A stretch of DNA of 64,000 bases from Alphaproteobacteria bacterium. GTDB taxonomy: Bacteria > Pseudomonadota > Alphaproteobacteria > Caulobacterales > Hyphomonadaceae. The notes beneath the pieces were generated by a model, which did no database searches, had not been told where the DNA came from, and saw only the letters and a program-made list of their open reading frames with translations. This document shows positions 3,855 through 64,000 of the stretch, piece after piece; positions within the stretch are counted from its first letter, which is position 1; each line of letters starts with the position of its first letter. The stretch lies in assembly GCA_018969425.1 (NCBI GenBank), contig JAGWYJ010000001.1, positions 1 to 64,000 on the forward strand, given 5' to 3'. A program made the position numbers and the translations under genes.

Positions 3855-4760
3855 TTAATGGCGACGATTGAGCACAAAGTCGACGGTCTGAACCAGCAAA
3901 GACGCGCGCGTCCCAAAAGAGGACAGGTGCTGCTTGGCCTGGGCGGCAAGATAGATCACCCTTTCCCGAGCGCCCTCGACCCCCAGAAGGGTCACAAAGT
4001 TAACCTTCCCGGCGTCCTTGTCTTTTTCGATCGCCTTTCCAAGCGTCTCCTCATCCCCTTCAACATCAAGAAGGTCGTCAACGATCTGAAAGGCGAGCCC
4101 CAGATCGGTCGTAAAGCCTGCGACGGCCTGACGCTCGTGATCATGGGCCCCGCCCAGCAGCGCACCCACCTCCCCGGCGAAGGTGATCATGGCTCCGGTC
4201 TTAAGTCTCTGCATACGAGTGAGGACCTGAAGGGGATCCTCGCCATCGATCTCGGGGCGCATGTCGATCATCTGACCTCCCACCATCCCGCGGGGGCCGG
4301 CCGCATGCGCCATTCGTTCGATCAGGCGACATCGCATGACCGCATCCCGGTGCGTTTCAGGCGAAGCCATGATCTCGAATGCGAGCGTTAAAAGAGCGTC
4401 CCCCGCCAGAACCGCAGTGGCCTCGTCGAAGGCCTTGTGGACGGTAGGCTGACCGCGGCGGATGTCGTCATCATCCATGCACGGCAGATCGTCGTGGATC
4501 AGGGAATAGGCGTGAACGCACTCGATCGCCGCCGCCGCCCGCAACAGGGCCTTCTCGGGGGCTCCGAACATCCGGCCGACCTCAATGGCGATGAAGGGTC
4601 GGATGCGCTTACCCCGCCCTAAAGCCCCATGCCTCATCGCTCTCATCAGCTGGGCCTCAGGGCCCGAAGCGGACGGGATCAGCTGATCGATCGCCACCGT
4701 GATGCGATCTCCAACCTCATTGAGGCGGCGTTCAAAAACAGGGTCTACGGCGATCTTCAA
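3855..4760 (-). CDS. ispA: Polyprenyl (farnesyl) diphosphate synthase
   Basis: Aspartate-rich motifs DDLPCMDDDDIRRG and DDLLDVEGD; lies immediately upstream of dxs. Confidence 0.95.
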   Translation of the reverse strand: MKIAVDPVFERRLNEVGDRITVAIDQLIPSASGPEAQLMRAMRHGALGRGKRIRPFIAIEVGRMFGAPEKALLRAAAAIECVHAYSLIHDDLPCMDDDDIRRGQPTVHKAFDEATAVLAGDALLTLAFEIMASPETHRDAVMRCRLIERMAHAAGPRGMVGGQMIDMRPEIDGEDPLQVLTRMQRLKTGAMITFAGEVGALLGGAHDHERQAVAGFTTDLGLAFQIVDDLLDVEGDEETLGKAIEKDKDAGKVNFVTLLGVEGARERVIYLAAQAKQHLSSFGTRASLLVQTVDFVLNRRH

Positions 4761-52068: not shown

Positions 52069-52992
52069 CTATCTAAGAACGTTCAACAGCGACATGCTCT
52101 TCAGCATATTGAAAACGCTGGCGGAACTTTCATAGGCGAACTGAGCCTGATTGAGCCGGACCGCCACCTCCGCGAGATCAACCTCCACGATGCCGCCCAT
52201 CGCCTGATTCAGCGTTTGGACCTGATCGTCGTGACGTTTGATCGCCACGTCCGTATCGTTGAGCAAACGACCGTTCTGCGCCTGAGCCATCAGCAGCTTG
52301 TCGAATGCGGCCCCGAGACTTGAAAGCTCGTTCTGAAGCGCGGCGCTTTGCGCAGAGGTCAGGGAACGGCCAAAGGGACCGGACGGTCCGGCGTCAAACT
52401 CCGCCAGACGCTTGATCGACGCCAGAGCATCGGTGGCGATGTCCGAGGCGACGCCTCCGACGTTGATGGTCCTGCCCTCCTCGATACGAACGACCTGAGG
52501 GTCCGCCCCCTGCTGGATTGAGGACGCCAGCGGATTAGCCGCCAGCTCATCAAGGCTCTCGGCGATGATGGGCGGGCGATCATTGAGAACTCCCCCGAAA
52601 AGATACCGATCGCCAAGGCGGGTGTTCATCGCTTCGCGAACGATGGAAAAGGCTTCCTCGAGCTGATTTCTAACGCTGGCGCCGTTTTCAAGGCTGATGT
52701 TTTCGAACAGGCCCGCGCGGAGCTTCGAGACCACGTCGGATGCGCGCTCGAGGGCGAGATCCTGAACCTCCATCCGCGTCTTGACCTCCTCAGCCGCCGC
52801 CCGAAGGCTTTCCGTGCGGGCGAGCATGCGCCCGGCTGAAACCAGCGTCTGACTCTGGCGTCCGTATCCCTTGAGATCGGTCTCACGGGTCTGTTCAGAG
52901 CTCTGGCGGGCGGCCTCGACGAGGGACTTCTGCGCCCGCGCGAGATCGAGCATCGAGGACTGAGGGATCATTGCAGAGGCGATGCGGTTCAT
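52069..52992 (-). CDS. flgL: Flagellar hook-associated protein 3 (FlgL-like)
   Basis: Flagellin-like ends, GDRYLFGGVLNDRPPI, C-terminal LNQAQFAYESSASVFNMLKSMSLLNVLR; adjacent to flgK. Confidence 0.88.
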   Translation of the reverse strand: MNRIASAMIPQSSMLDLARAQKSLVEAARQSSEQTRETDLKGYGRQSQTLVSAGRMLARTESLRAAAEEVKTRMEVQDLALERASDVVSKLRAGLFENISLENGASVRNQLEEAFSIVREAMNTRLGDRYLFGGVLNDRPPIIAESLDELAANPLASSIQQGADPQVVRIEEGRTINVGGVASDIATDALASIKRLAEFDAGPSGPFGRSLTSAQSAALQNELSSLGAAFDKLLMAQAQNGRLLNDTDVAIKRHDDQVQTLNQAMGGIVEVDLAEVAVRLNQAQFAYESSASVFNMLKSMSLLNVLR

Positions 52993-53006
52993 GAGACTTA
53001 ATCCTC

Positions 53007-55112
53007 TCAAACCATCCGAAGGACGACGTCGTAGAGATCACGAGCGGCCTGAATCAGGCGCGAAGCTGCAGCGTAGGACTGCTGGTAAGTGGTCATGTTG
53101 ACCAGTTCTTCATCGAGGTTCACGCCCTCCTCGCTCAGTCGTCTCTGCTGAGCTTCCTCACGAACGGCCTCAGCGCCCGCCCGTGAAGCTTCAAGCGATT
53201 GCGCGCGAAGACCCGCATAGCCGGCAAGGCGGGCCCCGTACTCATCCAGGGATGAGGATTGGCCTACCATGCCGCCGGCGTCAGCAAACCGCCTCTGGAC
53301 TGTTCGTGACTCCTCCAGCGCTCCTGCGCCGCGCCCGTCCCCTCTGGATACGACCCTCGCGCCTGGCAGAGCTCCAGCCAGATCCGCCTGAGCCGTCGAC
53401 AGACGCGACGGATCGGAGACTATATCGGTTCTGACGGCAAGGCCTCGCGCCCGCTGAGCCGGCAGGCTCTCTCCAAGACCGAAAAGATCTGAAAGCGAAT
53501 ATCCCGTATCGCCCCGGCTTGTGCCGTCGTTAAACACGTCAATGCGGCTTGTCCCGTCTGTGCTGACAAGACGCAGCTTGCCGTAGGCGTCGAATGCGGT
53601 CTGGCCGACGCCCTGAAGCGCTGCGTCGATCTGAGAACGGAGAGCTGAGATGCTTGCTCCGCCACCGACGGTCAGATCTACGCGCCTGATGACCGCACCG
53701 TCTCCATTGCGAACCGCGAAGGTGACCTGCTGCCCAGCCTGGAAGCCATGCAAATCGGCTCCGGAGAGGCCTGTCTCGTAAGATAACGGGCGACCACGCG
53801 TAACCAGATCGTTGAGACCGAACGCATGCGCAAACCCCTTGCCTGCACGTGACGCAGGGTTTGCAGGATCATCCGACACGACCACGCCGGAACCTGGAAC
53901 CGACGAGGACAGAGACAGACGTCCAGCGGCGAATGCGGCGGCCCCGTTTGCCCCCATGGCTCCATTGAGCGCGGTTTGAAAGTCGCCGATCGAGTTTGCA
54001 AAGGATGTCACGACGCCTGAGTCGCTGGTGATCGATCCTGCAGAAAAATCGATGCGGTAATTGCGGGTCACGGCCCCGTCGGCGTTCACCAGAGCAATGT
54101 TTGTCGCGCCGGAAAAATTCAGCCGATCAGTGGCGATGAGACCCGTGTTGCGCCCTGTCAGCGCCTGCGGCGCCGGCAGGGAGGCCGATGCGTTGTGAGC
54201 TGCGTTCAGCGCCTCGGCGGCCCCCGCGGCGAGCTCGCCGAAGGATGCGGCCAGATCCGAGAGCTCCCGGTCGCGGGCCTTGAGAAGACCAAAAAGCTCG
54301 CCGGAGGCCAGATGCGGAGAAAACGCGGTCTCAACCGACGAACGCGGAGCAATCAGCACAACGCCGGGATAGTCTCCTCCCGTGCGGCTGTCCGGAGCAA
54401 GGCGCGCAGCATCCGTATCGACCAAAAGCGCGCCGTCTGTGGTTCTCACCTGAACCCCGCCCGTCGAGCGGGAGCTCACCCGAATATCGATGATCTCTGC
54501 GAGGCGATCGAGCATGACCGACTGCTCGGTCTGCGCATCGGTGGCGTCCACCCCGCCGAGGATGTTTCTCTGGATCAGACCATTCAGACGCGCGATGCCG
54601 CCCATCAGCTGATTGGCTTCCTCCATCACCTCGATCGCGCGACCGTCCGCTTCCGAACGAAGTCCGGAGATCTGATCAGATGCCCGCTGGAAATCTGAGA
54701 GCAGCGTCTGGACAGCGGACAGCGCCTCGGACCGGCGTAAGGATGAGGACGGATCCAGAGCCAACGCGCCAAAGGCGCCGAAGGCAGGGTCCATGGAGGA
54801 GAAAACTCCACCGGGATTCGACGGATCGCCCATCAGTCCCTGAGCGCGATCCATGAACTGCGCGAGGACGGATGCGGCGCCTGCCTCAGAGGCGCCGCGC
54901 ATTTCGGCGGCCGCCAGATAGGCGTTGGCGACGCGGGATATCTGGACCTCGACGCCGCCGAGACCCGTTATCTGTTGATTGACGAACTGAACATCGAGCC
55001 GGCTGTAACCCACCGTGTTGACATTGGCGACGTTGGTCGAGGCGGCGCGCAGCGCCTGCTGGTTCGCCGAGAGAGCGGACAAACCGTTACCCATGATGCC
55101 GGCTATGCTCAT
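53007..55112 (-). CDS. flgK: Flagellar hook-associated protein 1
   Basis: GLSALSANQQALRAASTNVANVNTVGYSR N-terminus and VNLDEELVNMTTYQQSYAAASRLIQAARDLYDVVLRMV C-terminus. Confidence 0.96.
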   Translation of the reverse strand: MSIAGIMGNGLSALSANQQALRAASTNVANVNTVGYSRLDVQFVNQQITGLGGVEVQISRVANAYLAAAEMRGASEAGAASVLAQFMDRAQGLMGDPSNPGGVFSSMDPAFGAFGALALDPSSSLRRSEALSAVQTLLSDFQRASDQISGLRSEADGRAIEVMEEANQLMGGIARLNGLIQRNILGGVDATDAQTEQSVMLDRLAEIIDIRVSSRSTGGVQVRTTDGALLVDTDAARLAPDSRTGGDYPGVVLIAPRSSVETAFSPHLASGELFGLLKARDRELSDLAASFGELAAGAAEALNAAHNASASLPAPQALTGRNTGLIATDRLNFSGATNIALVNADGAVTRNYRIDFSAGSITSDSGVVTSFANSIGDFQTALNGAMGANGAAAFAAGRLSLSSSVPGSGVVVSDDPANPASRAGKGFAHAFGLNDLVTRGRPLSYETGLSGADLHGFQAGQQVTFAVRNGDGAVIRRVDLTVGGGASISALRSQIDAALQGVGQTAFDAYGKLRLVSTDGTSRIDVFNDGTSRGDTGYSLSDLFGLGESLPAQRARGLAVRTDIVSDPSRLSTAQADLAGALPGARVVSRGDGRGAGALEESRTVQRRFADAGGMVGQSSSLDEYGARLAGYAGLRAQSLEASRAGAEAVREEAQQRRLSEEGVNLDEELVNMTTYQQSYAAASRLIQAARDLYDVVLRMV

Positions 55113-55180
55113 GATCGCCTCTTCGTCATCTGCGCTCGCGCCTCGTCCCGGCCCCTCTGGCCCCTGTCAGTCTGACCGAC

Positions 55181-55195
55181 CGGCAGTTTCTGCCG
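55181..55195. promoter_or_regulatory. FlbD/ftr-like inverted repeat CGGCAGTTTCTGCCG
   Basis: Perfect 6-bp arms; resembles two other TCTGCCG elements in the flgK-fliK intergenic region. Confidence 0.4.
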
Positions 55196-55323
55196 ACCCA
55201 GGCAGATTCGGGATTCTTGACCCGGCCCCTTCCAACTTCCTGAATAAAAAAGAGAAAACTTCACATATCGCCTTGCTTGACCTCGGCCGACGTCATCGGA
55301 CGTTCAGCTTCCTCGTTAACCAA

Positions 55324-55338
55324 GCAAGCAATGGGCCA
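55324..55338 (-). promoter_or_regulatory. Sigma-54 (-24/-12) promoter candidate for flgK-flgL
   Basis: Reverse complement TGGCCCATTGCTTGC; GG-N10-GC spacing kept, 13/15 to TGGCACGN4TTGC. Confidence 0.6.
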
Positions 55339-55455
55339 GTTCCCGAGGGAGCCGACGTGCGGGAAGGTCGAAACTCCAAGACGCCCCCCCGGGCCTCCAG
55401 ACGGGCCCCAAAGGGGACCGTCTGATCCACGTCGTGAACGCGGCAGCCGGTCGCC

Positions 55456-55470
55456 GGGCAAGTTCTGCCG
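55456..55470. promoter_or_regulatory. FlbD/ftr-like element GGGCAAGTTCTGCCG
   Basis: GGCA-N5-TGCC inverted repeat between the two candidate sigma-54 promoters. Confidence 0.4.
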
Positions 55471-55491
55471 CCCCGGCGACGCCAACGGACC

Positions 55492-55506
55492 GGGGAAAAT
55501 CTGCCG
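55492..55506. promoter_or_regulatory. FlbD/ftr-like element GGGGAAAATCTGCCG
   Basis: Shares GG-N6-TCTGCCG with the element at 55456-55470. Confidence 0.3.
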
Positions 55507-55565
55507 GGCTCACGCCACACCCTCAACATGTATCTGTTTTATTTGATATTTTTTTTCACAAAAAC

Positions 55566-55580
55566 TGGCCCATGGGTTGC
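55566..55580 (+). promoter_or_regulatory. Sigma-54 (-24/-12) promoter candidate for fliK-flgD-flgE
   Basis: TGGCCCATGGGTTGC; GG-N10-GC spacing, 60 nt upstream of the fliK ATG. Confidence 0.65.
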
Positions 55581-55639
55581 AGGTGATGTCTCGGTCCCGC
55601 TGGACCTCCATTTGAACGTCACGGACGCGACTATTCCTT

Positions 55640-56875
55640 ATGAGCCTGAGCGAAGCCCTTTTCACGCCTACACGACCGGCCTCGCCGCAGCCGACGGCTG
55701 CGCGACGGGCGGAGGAGCCGGCTTCGACCCGCGAGGAAGACACGAGCTTCTCTGAGATGCTCGATCAGGAAGACACGGAGGAGACAGCCCAACTCCCTTC
55801 CGCCGCAGGCGCCTCGGCTCCAGGGAGAGCAGCCGTTTCCCCGGAGACGGCTCTCATGCTCGCCGACCTCGCCCCCGTCGACCCGGCCGCCGCTGACGCG
55901 GTTACATCCGCCGTCTCGGAAGAGATTGCAGCGATGCTGGGCGCCGCGCTCACAGTCAGCGGGTCGACAAGCCCTCCGTTGGAAGGCGCCGGCCTTGTTA
56001 CGGCGTCGACAGGCCCTGGCCTCGTCTCAGCACCCCCCTCCTCGCCGATAGCTCCAGCCGCCGCGCTCGATACAGCCGCTGGTCCCGGCGCAGCGCGCGC
56101 CGAAGCGTCCGCCTCGAGCGGCTCCTCCGATCAGGCCGACACTCCGCCATCCTCCGGCCAAAAGACAGCCAACCCGGGGACGTCCCTCTCGAAGGAGACG
56201 ACAGGGGCTGCAATCAATACTGGCTCAGGGGGCGTGACGCCGCCTTCGCAGGCCGCCTCACAGACGCCGGCGCTGACACCCGATCTCTCCGCCCTTGCGT
56301 CATCCCCCCTCGACGGGCAGGCCGGCGCATCACCGTCGGGCGCCGCCCTATCGGGCCAGGGGCCGGCCGCAAGCGCAGCGACACCAGCCAGCCCCGCACA
56401 CCCCGCACTCGCCCAGGCCCCGGCCGCCGCCGTGCAGGTATATGTGCGTTTCGTGGAGCGGTTTGACGGACGCGCTCAGCAGTTCAACATCCGGCTCGAT
56501 CCGGCCGAGCTTGGAAGGGTCGACGTTCGCATCGAAATCGGCGCCGACCAGAAAGTGCACGCCGTTCTGGCGGCGCACGACAGCGCCGCTCTGAGCGACC
56601 TGATCCGCGGATCAAAGGCCCTTGAACAGGCTCTCGCCTCTTCCGGGGTCGATCTGGCGGACGGCGGCCTCAGATTCGAACTGTCAGACGACCGACAGGA
56701 CCGGAGCGGATCTGGAAGCGCCCAGACCGGGGACTCCAATGATCGTCGAAACCGGTCTGGAGCCGAACGGCTCCCGCCTGCAGTCCAACTCGGCGATTCA
56801 CTCCGGGGGCCGCAGCCGTCGACCCCCGGCCTGCTCTATTCCTGGCGTCCGGCGCGCCTCAATCTTCTGGCCTGA
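55640..56875 (+). CDS. fliK: Flagellar hook-length control protein (FliK C-terminal domain)
   Basis: Long Ala/Ser/Pro-rich N-terminus, then YVRFVERFDGRAQQFNIRLDPAELGRVDVRIEIGADQKVHAVLAAHDSAALSDLIRGSKALEQALASSGVDL. Confidence 0.85.
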   Translation: MSLSEALFTPTRPASPQPTAARRAEEPASTREEDTSFSEMLDQEDTEETAQLPSAAGASAPGRAAVSPETALMLADLAPVDPAAADAVTSAVSEEIAAMLGAALTVSGSTSPPLEGAGLVTASTGPGLVSAPPSSPIAPAAALDTAAGPGAARAEASASSGSSDQADTPPSSGQKTANPGTSLSKETTGAAINTGSGGVTPPSQAASQTPALTPDLSALASSPLDGQAGASPSGAALSGQGPAASAATPASPAHPALAQAPAAAVQVYVRFVERFDGRAQQFNIRLDPAELGRVDVRIEIGADQKVHAVLAAHDSAALSDLIRGSKALEQALASSGVDLADGGLRFELSDDRQDRSGSGSAQTGDSNDRRNRSGAERLPPAVQLGDSLRGPQPSTPGLLYSWRPARLNLLA

Positions 56876-56887
56876 CGGAGAAAGATC

Positions 56888-57553
56888 ATGACGGATCTGG
56901 TTTCCTTTGTTTCCGCGGCCTCGCCGGCAGCATCGACGTCAGCGGCGTCAAAGATGACCCTGTCGAACAATTTCGACACCTTCCTGACAATCCTGACCGC
57001 CCAGATTCAGAATCAGGACCCGCTCGAGCCAATGGACTCAACCCAGTTCACGCAGCAACTGGTCCAATTCTCAGGGGTCGAACAACAGATCCGGTCCAAT
57101 CAGCAACTTGAAACCCTCATATCCGCCACCCGATCGTCAGCAGGCGCCTCGCTTTCAGGTTACCTGGGGCAGCAGGCCGAAATCGCGAGCGATACGGCGC
57201 AATACTCGGGTGAACCCATAAGCTTCCTCTACTCCCTGCCTCAGGATGCGGCGAGCGCTGATCTGACCATTCTTGATTCAAGCGGACGCGCGGTCTTCAC
57301 GGCGGAAGGCGCAACGGAAGCGGGTCGCCATGGCTTCACGTGGAACGGTCAGATCTCCTCGGGAGCAGACGCGCGCCCGGGCATCTACACCCTGAAAATT
57401 ACGGCGAAATCGGCTGCCGGAGACCCCATCTCGGCCGAACAGGCTGTGCTCGCACAGATCACCGGGGTCGACCTCACCCATGGAGAACCGGCCCTGACCA
57501 CGCCAGTCGGGATTTTCGCCTATTCCGACATCCGACGTCTGACCCAGACCTGA
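56888..57553 (+). CDS. flgD: Flagellar hook capping protein
   Basis: NFDTFLTILTAQIQNQDPLEPMDSTQFTQQLVQFSGVEQQIRSNQQLETL. Confidence 0.95.
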   Translation: MTDLVSFVSAASPAASTSAASKMTLSNNFDTFLTILTAQIQNQDPLEPMDSTQFTQQLVQFSGVEQQIRSNQQLETLISATRSSAGASLSGYLGQQAEIASDTAQYSGEPISFLYSLPQDAASADLTILDSSGRAVFTAEGATEAGRHGFTWNGQISSGADARPGIYTLKITAKSAAGDPISAEQAVLAQITGVDLTHGEPALTTPVGIFAYSDIRRLTQT

Positions 57554-57642
57554 TTCCTACAAAAGCCTGCCCGTCCGTCCTTCACCTTCCACCCAGCCAT
57601 CACCTTTAACTGATCCACTCAGTCACATCGGAGCCAGACCCC

Positions 57643-59004
57643 ATGAGCATCAACTCAGCCATGCTCGCCGGCGCATCCGGAATGCGCGCAAACGCGAGCG
57701 CCCTCGCTGCGATCTCCGACAACATCTCGAATGTGAACACGGTGGGCTACAAACGCGTTCGAAACGACTTCGTCTCCCTTCTCGACGCCGGGACCGGAGG
57801 GACATCTCACAGCGCAGGCGGCGTCCTCGCCGCTCATTCGCAGCTGATTTCGGAGCAAGGCGCTCCTCAGGCCTCCAGCGTCGCCACGCATCTCGCCATT
57901 TCCGGGGCAGGCTTTTTCTCCGTCCGATCCTCCTCCGAGATCGGAGCGGCGTCGGACCCGCTTTACTTCACCCGCGCCGGACAGTTCGGACCCGATCAAA
58001 GCGGCTACCTCAAGAATGCGGCGGGCTTCTATCTGCAGGGATGGCCCGTCAACGCCGCCGGCCAGGTTACCGCCAGCCCGACTGATCTGGGAGACCTTGA
58101 ACCGATCCGGGTGTCCGGGGTCGTCGGAGGCGCAAGCTCAACCACTTCCGTCAGCCTCTCGGCGAACCTGCGCTCCTCGCAGCCCGTCTCAGCGGCGGCG
58201 GCGACCTATAACGCCGCGACCAACAATATGGCGTCCGGGGCCGTCACACCGGATTTTCAGGCTCCCATCCAGATCTATGACAGCCGCGGCGGTCTTAAGA
58301 CGCTCAATGTCTCGTTCCTCAAGCAGGGGCCGAACTCCTGGTACGCCGAAGTTCATCTGCCGTCCTCCGATGTCGTATCGGGCGGAGGCCTCGTCAACGG
58401 ACAGCTCGCGACCGGCATGGTCCGGTTCACCCCCTTCGGCCAGATCGATCTCGCCACTTCAACCCTGCCGAGCTCAGTGACCATCAATCAGAACGGCGTC
58501 GGAACCGGCCCTCAGTGGGCGGCCGGACTTGGTCTGGCGACGCAGACCATTGCGCTGGATATCGACGGATCCGCCTCGATCGGCGGACTGACCAGCTTTG
58601 ATGCGAACTCGGTGCTGAACGACACAGAAACAGACGGCACAGCTTTCGGCTCGCTCTCTTCTGTGGACGTAGGAGAAGACGGGTCGGTCAACGCTTTATT
58701 CTCGAACGGCCAGGTGCGCCGGATCTATCAAATCCCTGTTGCGACATTCGATAATCCCGACAGCCTTCTTGCAGAGCAGAAAGGCGTCTTCAGGATCGGA
58801 GCCGAAACAGGAGAACTCTCCATGAAGTCGGCCGGGACGCTCGGGGCCGGAGAGATCAGGCCCAGGGCGCTTGAAAGTTCGACTGTCGATCTCGCTGAAG
58901 AGTTCTCAAACCTGATCATCACTCAGCGCGCCTACTCAGCCTCTTCAAAAATAATCACGACGGCCGACGAAATGCTTGACGAGCTCATTCGTCTCAAGCG
59001 TTAA
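57643..59004 (+). CDS. flgE: Flagellar hook protein
   Basis: NASALAAISDNISNVNTVGYKRVRNDFVSLL and C-terminal VDLAEEFSNLIITQRAYSASSKIITTADEMLDELIRLKR. Confidence 0.95.
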   Translation: MSINSAMLAGASGMRANASALAAISDNISNVNTVGYKRVRNDFVSLLDAGTGGTSHSAGGVLAAHSQLISEQGAPQASSVATHLAISGAGFFSVRSSSEIGAASDPLYFTRAGQFGPDQSGYLKNAAGFYLQGWPVNAAGQVTASPTDLGDLEPIRVSGVVGGASSTTSVSLSANLRSSQPVSAAAATYNAATNNMASGAVTPDFQAPIQIYDSRGGLKTLNVSFLKQGPNSWYAEVHLPSSDVVSGGGLVNGQLATGMVRFTPFGQIDLATSTLPSSVTINQNGVGTGPQWAAGLGLATQTIALDIDGSASIGGLTSFDANSVLNDTETDGTAFGSLSSVDVGEDGSVNALFSNGQVRRIYQIPVATFDNPDSLLAEQKGVFRIGAETGELSMKSAGTLGAGEIRPRALESSTVDLAEEFSNLIITQRAYSASSKIITTADEMLDELIRLKR

Positions 59005-59504: not shown

Positions 59505-59571
59505 AAGCCCTTAGGGATCACGGCGAACTAACGTCCTGTCCCTAACTTCTAAACGGATTTGGTAACCCTCA

Positions 59572-59586
59572 TTAAGGTTACGTTTA
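59572..59586. promoter_or_regulatory. CtrA-like box TTAA-N7-TTTA upstream of fliF
   Basis: ttaaggttacgtttacg, one mismatch to TTAA-N7-TTAA, 62 nt upstream of the fliF start. Confidence 0.5.
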
Positions 59587-59647
59587 CGCGACGCTGGGAA
59601 ATTCCTGCCTAGTCGAATGGGCGACGGGCAGTTTTTTCCAGGCGATC

Positions 59648-61294
59648 ATGGCCGAATCCACTGATCTCATTGCAAATCTCGCGCGCTCCGGACGGATGCG
59701 AATCGCTGCAGCCCTTGCGGTCACCGCCCTGGTCGGTGGGGGCCTGGGCGTTATCATGCTTCGCGGCGGCGAGGGCGATACGGCGCTCCTTTTCTCCGGT
59801 CTGGACCTCGAAGAAGCGGCAGAAATTGCCGGCCGACTGGATACGGCGAACATAAGCTACAATCTCGAAGGGGGCGGGTCCGCAATCTTTGTCGATCGGG
59901 CTCAGGTCGACGACGCCCGGATGATGCTCTCCGAACAGGGTCTTCCCACCCGGGGGTCGGTGGGATGGGAGATCTTCGACAAGACCGAGGCGCTGGGCAC
60001 AACCAGCTTTGTTCAAAATATCAATAAAATCAGAGCTCTTGAGGGTGAGCTCGCACGCACCATCTCCTCTCTGGATATGGTGAAGGCGGCGAGAGTTCAC
60101 CTCAACCTCCCTGACCGCCCCCTGTTCCAGAAAGATAATCAGCCGCCCACCGCTTCTGTCGTGGTTTCTCTTCGAGGATCCGAAATGGGAGCCGACAAGG
60201 TTCGGGCGATCCGGAACCTTGTCGCCACGAGCGTCCCCGGCCTTGAGGTCAAACACATCACGGTCGTCGACGATCAAGGACGCATGCTCGCGGCGGGAGC
60301 AGAGAGCTCCGAGGACGCCCTTGGCGGGGGAGACGGCGACGAGCGCAAGGTTGCGCTGGAGAATAACTTTCGCAACAAGGTCTCCGAGCTTGTGGAAAAC
60401 ATCGCGGGCCCCGGCGCGGCGCGCGTGCAAGTGTCCGCGGAGGTTGACTACAACCGCATAACCGAGAGCGCTGAAACCTACGATCCGGACGGCCAGGTAC
60501 TGCGCTCGTCCACCAGCGTCGAAGAGACGTCGTCTGACGTCGAGACCGAGCCGGCCGACGAGACCACTGTCGCCAATAATGTGCCTGACGGCGCTGATCC
60601 TGCTGCGGCCGCGGAGCCAGCCGCTCCCCAGCCGACCAGTCAGCGCCAGCAGTCGCGTACGGATGAGACTGTGAATTACGAAATCTCCAAGAGCACCCGC
60701 ACGGAGATTATCGAGGGCGGACGCATACAGAAGATCTCCGTCGCAGTCGTTGTTGACGATCGACGGGTGCCCGGCGTCGAAGGCGCGCCCCCCACTTATG
60801 AGCCCCGAACGCCGGAAGAGCTTGAGCGGATCTCCACCCTGGTGAAGTCAGCCATCGGCTTCAATGAGGCGCGGGGCGACACGGTGACGGTCGAAAATAT
60901 CTCGTTCGCTCGTCCGGAAGTGTCGATGGTTGAAGCCGAGGAGCCTGGCGCATTCGACTTTGACAAATTCGATCTCGTGCGCGGGGGAGAGATCGGCGCC
61001 CTCCTGATCACAGCTCTCGCTCTTGTCTTCTTCGTTCTGCGTCCACTGGTTCGCGGCCTGCTCTCAAAGCCTGAGGAAGACGCGCCGCTGACGCCGGCTC
61101 GCGCCCTGGCCGCCCCTCCTCCGCCGGAACCGGAGCCGGAGCTCGATATGGGCATTGATGTGGCGCGGGTGACGGGCCAAGTCCGAGCCTCTACGATCAA
61201 GAGGGTCGGCGAGGTCGTGAACCAGTACCCGGACGAGTCCAGCACCATCATCCGAACCTGGCTCCTCGATCAGAACCCGGATAGAGCGGCATGA
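59648..61294 (+). CDS. fliF: Flagellar MS-ring protein
   Basis: [69 protein letters not shown]-terminal FliG-binding tail. Confidence 0.96.
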
Positions 61295-63424: not shown

Positions 63425-64000
63425 ATGCGCGTTCTGATCATCGGCCAACTCGCAGGCCAGCTCTCCAACGCGACGAAGATCGCTTTTGATCGTGGAGCCA
63501 AGGTCATCCATGCCGGGACGATTTCAGCCGCCCTCGACATGCTTCGTTCCGGCAAGGGCGCAGACCTTCTCATGGTTGATGTCCATGAGGATATCTCCCT
63601 TCTTGTTTCGGCGATGCAGCAGGAACGAATCGTAGCTCCAGTCATCGCCTGCGGCGTCGGAACAAGCCCGGACATGGCTGCTTCAGCTATCCGCGCCGGC
63701 GCAAGGGAGTTCATTCCTCTTCCCCCTGACCAGGAGCTGATCGCGGCTGTTCTGTCGGCGATTGCAGATGACGACCGACCGATGATCGCCCGTGACGCCA
63801 TCATGGTCGAACTGAAATCTCTGGCTGAACAGATCGCTCCCTCCGACGCGTCGATCCTGATCACGGGAGAAAGCGGCGTCGGTAAGGAGGTGATGGCGCG
63901 TCATCTCCACCGCCGCTCCCGACGGGCGGACAAGCCGTTCATTTCAGTGAACTGCGCCGCCATTCCCGAGAACCTCCTGGAGAGCGAACTCTTCGGTCAC
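63425..64000 (+). CDS. flbD: Sigma-54-dependent flagellar regulator FlbD (truncated at the right edge)
   Basis: Frame read by hand: degenerate receiver then [49 protein letters not shown] (AAA+ sigma-54 activator). Absent from the ORF track because it runs off the end. Confidence 0.88.

Follow-up and report, generated by a model that had tools for sequence, protein, structure and literature searches.

The 64-kb window (the whole stretch of DNA that was analysed, 64,000 nucleotides) contains two flagellar transcription units which, according to gene calls and Pfam matches, run in divergent directions from one common intergenic region. On the reverse strand lies flgK (53007-55112), which codes for hook-associated protein 1 (Pfam FlgK_D1, 109.8 bits; NCBIfam flgK_ends, 226 against a cut-off of 171) and whose closest relative at the protein level is 94% identical; it is followed by a flgL-like gene (52069-53010). 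On the forward strand, fliK (55640-56875; above the Pfam cut-off) is the first gene of the hook operon fliK-flgD-flgE (55640-59004; Pfam Flg_hook, FlgD and FlgE_D2). Further along inside the window the gene order is fliF-fliG-fliH-fliN-flbD. The 5' part of flbD occupies 63425-64000 on the forward strand and the complete gene (C41:63425-64801) runs past the window edge, which agrees with an earlier note on this DNA that had put flbD at its right end. The sequences singled out in that note are all present where it had located them.

The intergenic region carries two conserved sigma-54 -24/-12 boxes with GG-N10-GC spacing in opposite orientations: TGGCCCATTGCTTGC (55324-55338, reverse strand) facing flgK and TGGCCCATGGGTTGC (55566-55580, forward strand) facing fliK-flgD-flgE. 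A weight scan of the 64 kb ranked the fliK box top (score 16.5) and the flgK box second (15.7), as against 12.5 for the next-ranked site. The geometry of the boxes predicts that flgK transcription starts at about 55312, which would give a leader of about 200 nt, and that fliK transcription starts at about 55593. Across the whole genome, the strict box pattern TGGCNCN5TTGC shows no enrichment relative to its backward control (34 matches vs 27); hence the single sequence is weak proof when taken alone, and it is conservation that decides. Directly after the flgK -12 element (window ~55314-55322) we also observed TGGTTAAC, which is conserved in genera g1, g7 and g10; within the initiation region it may be either a half-site for CtrA or a sequence preference of the melting region.

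Around these boxes are several palindromes of the ftr type. Two central sites, GGGCAAGTTCTGCCG (55456-55470) and GGGGAAAATCTGCCG (55492-55506), are separated from the fliK box by 103 and 67 bp and from the flgK box by 125 and 161 bp, respectively. The flgK leader contains the perfect palindrome CGGCAGTTTCTGCCG (55181-55195), centered at about +123 of the predicted flgK start, along with a degenerate second site recognized from the sequence (55200-55214; half-site AATCTGCCT on the flgK strand). With at most one mismatch, the consensus CGGCARAWHYTGCCG has 5 matches in the window versus 0.18 expected, a count attained in 0 of 100 shuffles, bearing in mind that the pattern was picked after the sites were known and that palindromes score on both strands. 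Loose ftr patterns show no excess over controls in single-genome counts, and we therefore relied upon neither these nor the single-genome sigma-54 counts. Two other candidates were rejected: a palindrome inside the fliF coding region (59817) with the appearance of a perfect ftr, which we take as chance because the closest relative alone has it at that position, and a perfect ftr-like palindrome at fliI/ctrA (G000:C41:70718-70732) that is common only to the closest relative.

The genome also codes for the trans-acting factors that such a region would call for. The full FlbD protein matches the curated NCBIfam FlbD equivalog model NF050807 (769.1 vs a cut-off of 750) and combines a Sigma54_activat (AAA+) domain with an HTH_8 (Fis-type HTH) domain; a receiver domain was not matched in Pfam. 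There is one RpoN in the genome (Sigma54_DBD, 231.6 vs a cut-off of 22.8) and a FliX (Pfam FliX, 96.8 vs a cut-off of 25; the NCBIfam equivalog score of 114.7 is under its cut-off of 175). Two AT-rich stretches, one between the flgK start and the leader ftr (55240-55259) and the other between the central ftr sites and the fliK box (55530-55559), are possible IHF bends, each of them a weak match with two mismatches to the IHF consensus. Order-wide, IHF-like sequences with at most one mismatch are found in the first interval in 43/106 cases (5.6 expected) and in the second in 42/101 (9.2 expected). Within the family, FlbD is found only in genera that have the FlgK type of the window. Four genera of family f1 (g4, g5, g8 and g9) possess a short FlgK type (~480 aa) and yield no FlbD match at E 1e-100, which suggests a different flagellar control system inside the same family.

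The region recalls the flaN/flbG divergent unit of Caulobacter crescentus, in which we take flaN to be flgK and flbG to be the hook operon, with ftr2 and ftr3 presumably situated near +86 and +120. As in that unit, with its ftr1, ftr2 and ftr3, the operons here diverge and have sigma-54 boxes in both directions, ftr sites lie both between the promoters and downstream of the flgK/flaN start, and FlbD, RpoN and a FliX recognized by the Pfam model are present. The parallel with Caulobacter drawn in the earlier note is hence well matched by the layout seen in the sequence, down to the ftr downstream of the flaN start. The differences are that the host family is Hyphomonadaceae and that the leader is longer. 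Named Caulobacter and Phenylobacterium loci (L039-L042) have the same layout, leader ftr sites included, but with a flgK box of the TGGCGCC type as opposed to the TGGCCC type found here. Further, the leader site is centered at about +123 here as against about +89 in genus f2 g19, and the central pair is 36 bp apart rather than the usual 21-23. Class III flagellar genes need sigma-54, IHF and FlbD (PMC3096577), and the titles of two studies cited therein speak of ftr2 and ftr3 as required for flaN/flbG expression (Mullin and Newton 1993) and of a 3' enhancer plus IHF (Gober and Shapiro 1992). In other polar flagellates the enhancer-binding proteins for the rod and hook genes are FlgR, FlrC and FleR (PMC7064773); these systems use sensor kinases, whereas the FlbD system uses FliX.

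We then assessed conservation upstream of flgK in 124 genomes that represent four families of the order, defining ftr as CGGCA-N5-TGCCG with at most two mismatches, a definition picked after the window was viewed. Both divergent sigma-54 boxes, strictly defined, are found in 99 of the 124. Of the 110 genomes with a flgK box, 106 have a leader ftr (at most two mismatches) downstream of the predicted flgK start (10.7 expected from shuffles), and of the 111 with a fliK box, 101 have a central ftr (12.7 expected); here the shuffles preserve base composition but not relatedness and genomes of the same genus are not independent. The center of the leader site assumes preferred, clade-specific distances (~+89, +99, +116, +126 and +143), and ftr sites are often paired at a spacing of 21-23 bp, i.e. 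two helical turns; in the leader, pairs with a spacing of about 21 bp are frequent across the order. This sequence conservation at fixed positions across the order is what argues strongly against chance. The view that the sigma-54 and ftr matches are mere coincidences of GC-rich DNA, to which the single-genome sigma-54 and loose ftr counts at the level of the controls might lend themselves, is refuted by such order-wide conservation at fixed distances and deserves practically no credence. The divergent sigma-54 promoters predicted by the earlier note, whose boxes score highest in the 64 kb and recur across the order, and its FlbD-type sites, namely the two central ones and the perfect leader palindrome, likewise kept across the order, both hold up as putative regulatory elements.

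The earlier note had left two readings for the leader palindrome: an RNA structure or an FlbD repression site. Taken in isolation, CGGCAG-AAA-CUGCCG could indeed form a 6-bp hairpin, as would befit an RNA element acting either as a hairpin or as a protein-binding leader. However, in the predicted fold of the ~200-nt flgK leader the two halves of the palindrome are unpaired with each other, and the stability of the fold is no better than that of shuffles (z = +1.04). Nor is there clear covariation among 106 distinct leader sites: pairing between the halves is near the expectation from independence save at the innermost position (50 vs 39 expected pairings), where the excess cannot stem from a hairpin because its loop would be one base. 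The leader has no match in Rfam. Moreover, the central sites, which fall between the two starts and belong to neither predicted transcript, share the consensus of the leader sites (correlation of 0.78 over flanks and core). The lack of fold, covariation and Rfam signals, together with this common consensus, therefore places the constraint on a DNA motif, so that the suggestion of an RNA structure goes unsupported and an RNA element is very improbable. For the leader palindrome (55181-55195), the likeliest role is that of a downstream FlbD enhancer and counterpart of ftr2/ftr3. By the same analogy, repression through this site appears less likely than activation, because the homologous C. crescentus ftr2/ftr3 are, in the title of the 1993 study, required for flaN/flbG expression.

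A further question is which site serves which promoter. The earlier note had envisaged one shared enhancer cluster for both operons; on this reading FlbD at the central sites would activate both promoters, with the leader palindrome fine-tuning or repressing flgK. The central sites are upstream of both promoters, and their distances from the flgK box are within the normal range for an enhancer; FlbD also has the capacity to repress from sites on a promoter or downstream of it, as with C. crescentus fliF (PMC3930126). Nevertheless, distance is conserved toward fliK only. Among the 11 genomes of the window's genus in which both boxes are present, the promoter spacing ranges from 165 to 263 bp, a variation of 98 bp. 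In all 11 the best central ftr holds a distance of 103-105 bp to the fliK box (median 105, SD 0.6), whereas its distance to the flgK box tracks the promoter spacing (SD 29.3 bp). This distance test gives no information for roughly half of the genera, where the promoter spacing is nearly constant, and best-site distances are scattered in three (f2 g21, f4 g28 and f1 g6). The flgK promoter has leader sites of its own, and across genera g1, g7 and g10 the start of the leader site is 142-147 bp from that of the flgK box; in four genomes of this comparison the ftr located there has 3 mismatches and is degenerate, and a better match is 163-177 bp away. Since sigma-54 enhancers tolerate changes in distance, the fixed fliK spacing is no proof that flgK ignores the central sites.

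Natural separations of the two operons bear on the same point, for each operon retains its own ftr sites. In genome G004 an insertion has widened the gap between the boxes to about 490 bp; ftr sites remain at 83 and 105 bp from the fliK box, and flgK retains its leader sites. In G021 other genes lie between the operons, with about 4.4 kb separating fliK and its box from the flgK box: fliK still has a box of its own (L256:4739) and an ftr pair at 4640 and 4663 (92 and 69 bp), and flgK retains its box and leader sites. Conversely, in the six genomes of genus g3 the flgK sigma-54 box and the leader ftr are both absent (0/6), with the fliK box (6/6), the central ftr (5/6) and FlbD retained; this is probably a single evolutionary event, as all belong to one clade. 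The cited C. crescentus title, in which the homologous downstream elements are described as required, also speaks against a single shared enhancer with a fine-tuning or repressing leader site. In light of the distance rule in the genus, the separations in G004 and G021, and the co-loss in g3, we favor two dedicated enhancers over one shared cluster as the likelier reading of the sequences, with which some cross-talk would be compatible, and consider a single shared enhancer unlikely. As a separate observation, the g3 genomes (L019-L024) display a conserved GTAAAGGATTGCGAAATCTCC..TTAATAAAAT block at -110 to -75 before flgK, in the place of the sigma-54 box and leader ftr, which is possibly another promoter type.

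We hold it highly probable, as one joint explanation, that this Hyphomonadaceae intergenic region is orthologous to the divergent flaN/flbG control region of C. crescentus and forms an FlbD/sigma-54 unit in which the central sites act mainly on fliK and the leader site mainly on flgKL. Its observed basis comprises the sequence elements, the genes for the trans-acting factors, their conservation and distances, and the lack of an RNA-structure signal. Under the two-enhancer explanation, sigma-54 RNA polymerase would sit closed at two back-to-back promoters, and FlbD, an AAA+ enhancer-binding protein, would remain restrained by FliX as long as the early basal body is incomplete. FlbD on the ftr palindromes would then reach the polymerase by looping, probably with help from IHF. 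The two central sites, about 65-105 bp upstream, would mainly drive the fliK-flgD-flgE hook operon, and flgKL would mainly be driven by its own FlbD site at about +120 in the transcribed leader, functioning as a downstream enhancer. FlbD binding, the role of IHF, sigma-54 dependence, the sign of the regulation and the start sites are all predictions in this scheme.

A broader proposition, to which we assign even chances, is that the flgK promoter of Caulobacterales has relied since before the split of the families on an in-leader enhancer at near-fixed, clade-specific distances, with the hook operon using a separate upstream enhancer, such that the seemingly shared promoter pair would in fact be two insulated modules. 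If this is true, flgK transcription, once initiated, would run through flgK's own activator site. A downstream enhancer is an unusual arrangement for a sigma-54 promoter, and the clade-specific distances offer natural variants for testing enhancer position, IHF and transcription through the site. The known system gains from this work a footprint spanning the order, a distance rule and a set of natural separations. A textbook regulatory region is thereby carried beyond a single model species to a whole order, and comparison alone indicates the probable assignment of sites to promoters.

A search for the motif at other flagellar promoters recovered it at one flagellin promoter, at flgF/fliL and at fliF, conserved at each; the check proposed in the earlier note, on whether other flagellar promoters are enriched in the motif, hence speaks in favor of the finding, with the reservation that the loose motif is not enriched genome-wide. 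Upstream of fliF, the ftr4-like site GGGAAATTCCTGCCT (59596-59610) occupies the same aligned place in all 10 sequences compared and is preceded in 10/10 by a conserved TTAA..TTTAC block; a second element lies at 59626-59640. The upstream block as a whole (window 59560-59648; also L086-L092, L096 and L097) presents a TTAA-rich CtrA-like sequence followed by GGGAAATTCCTGCCT and GGCAGTTTTTTCC, and its sequence resembles a CtrA promoter combined with an FlbD site of the ftr4 type. Repression of fliF by FlbD acting through ftr4 is on record for C. crescentus (PMC3930126), and here too a conserved ftr-like element stands between the TTAA-rich block and the fliF start. Because of this precedent we place the repression-type site sought by the earlier note at fliF: the ftr4-like element is found there and not in the flgK leader, and repression is predicted by analogy. 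Thus, the site at 59596 is proposed to be an FlbD repression site of the early operon containing flbD, and, as flbD belongs to the fliF operon, the block would close a feedback loop.

In the flgF/fliL intergenic region (L085:15178-15435, C20) an ftr pair is conserved in 12/12 genomes, and no standard sigma-54 box oriented to flgF was found in that region; TTAAGGATT and GTTAACC blocks accompany the pair. One flagellin gene per genome in the genus has an ftr 119-122 bp upstream of a conserved TGGCACG-N4-yTTGAA box. In this flagellin box, seen at G000:C20:290-305 (locus L085) and in nine further genomes of the genus, the -12 GC, as a rule invariant, is replaced by GA, or by GT in G014, and the ftr about 120 bp upstream of it is perfect or near-perfect.
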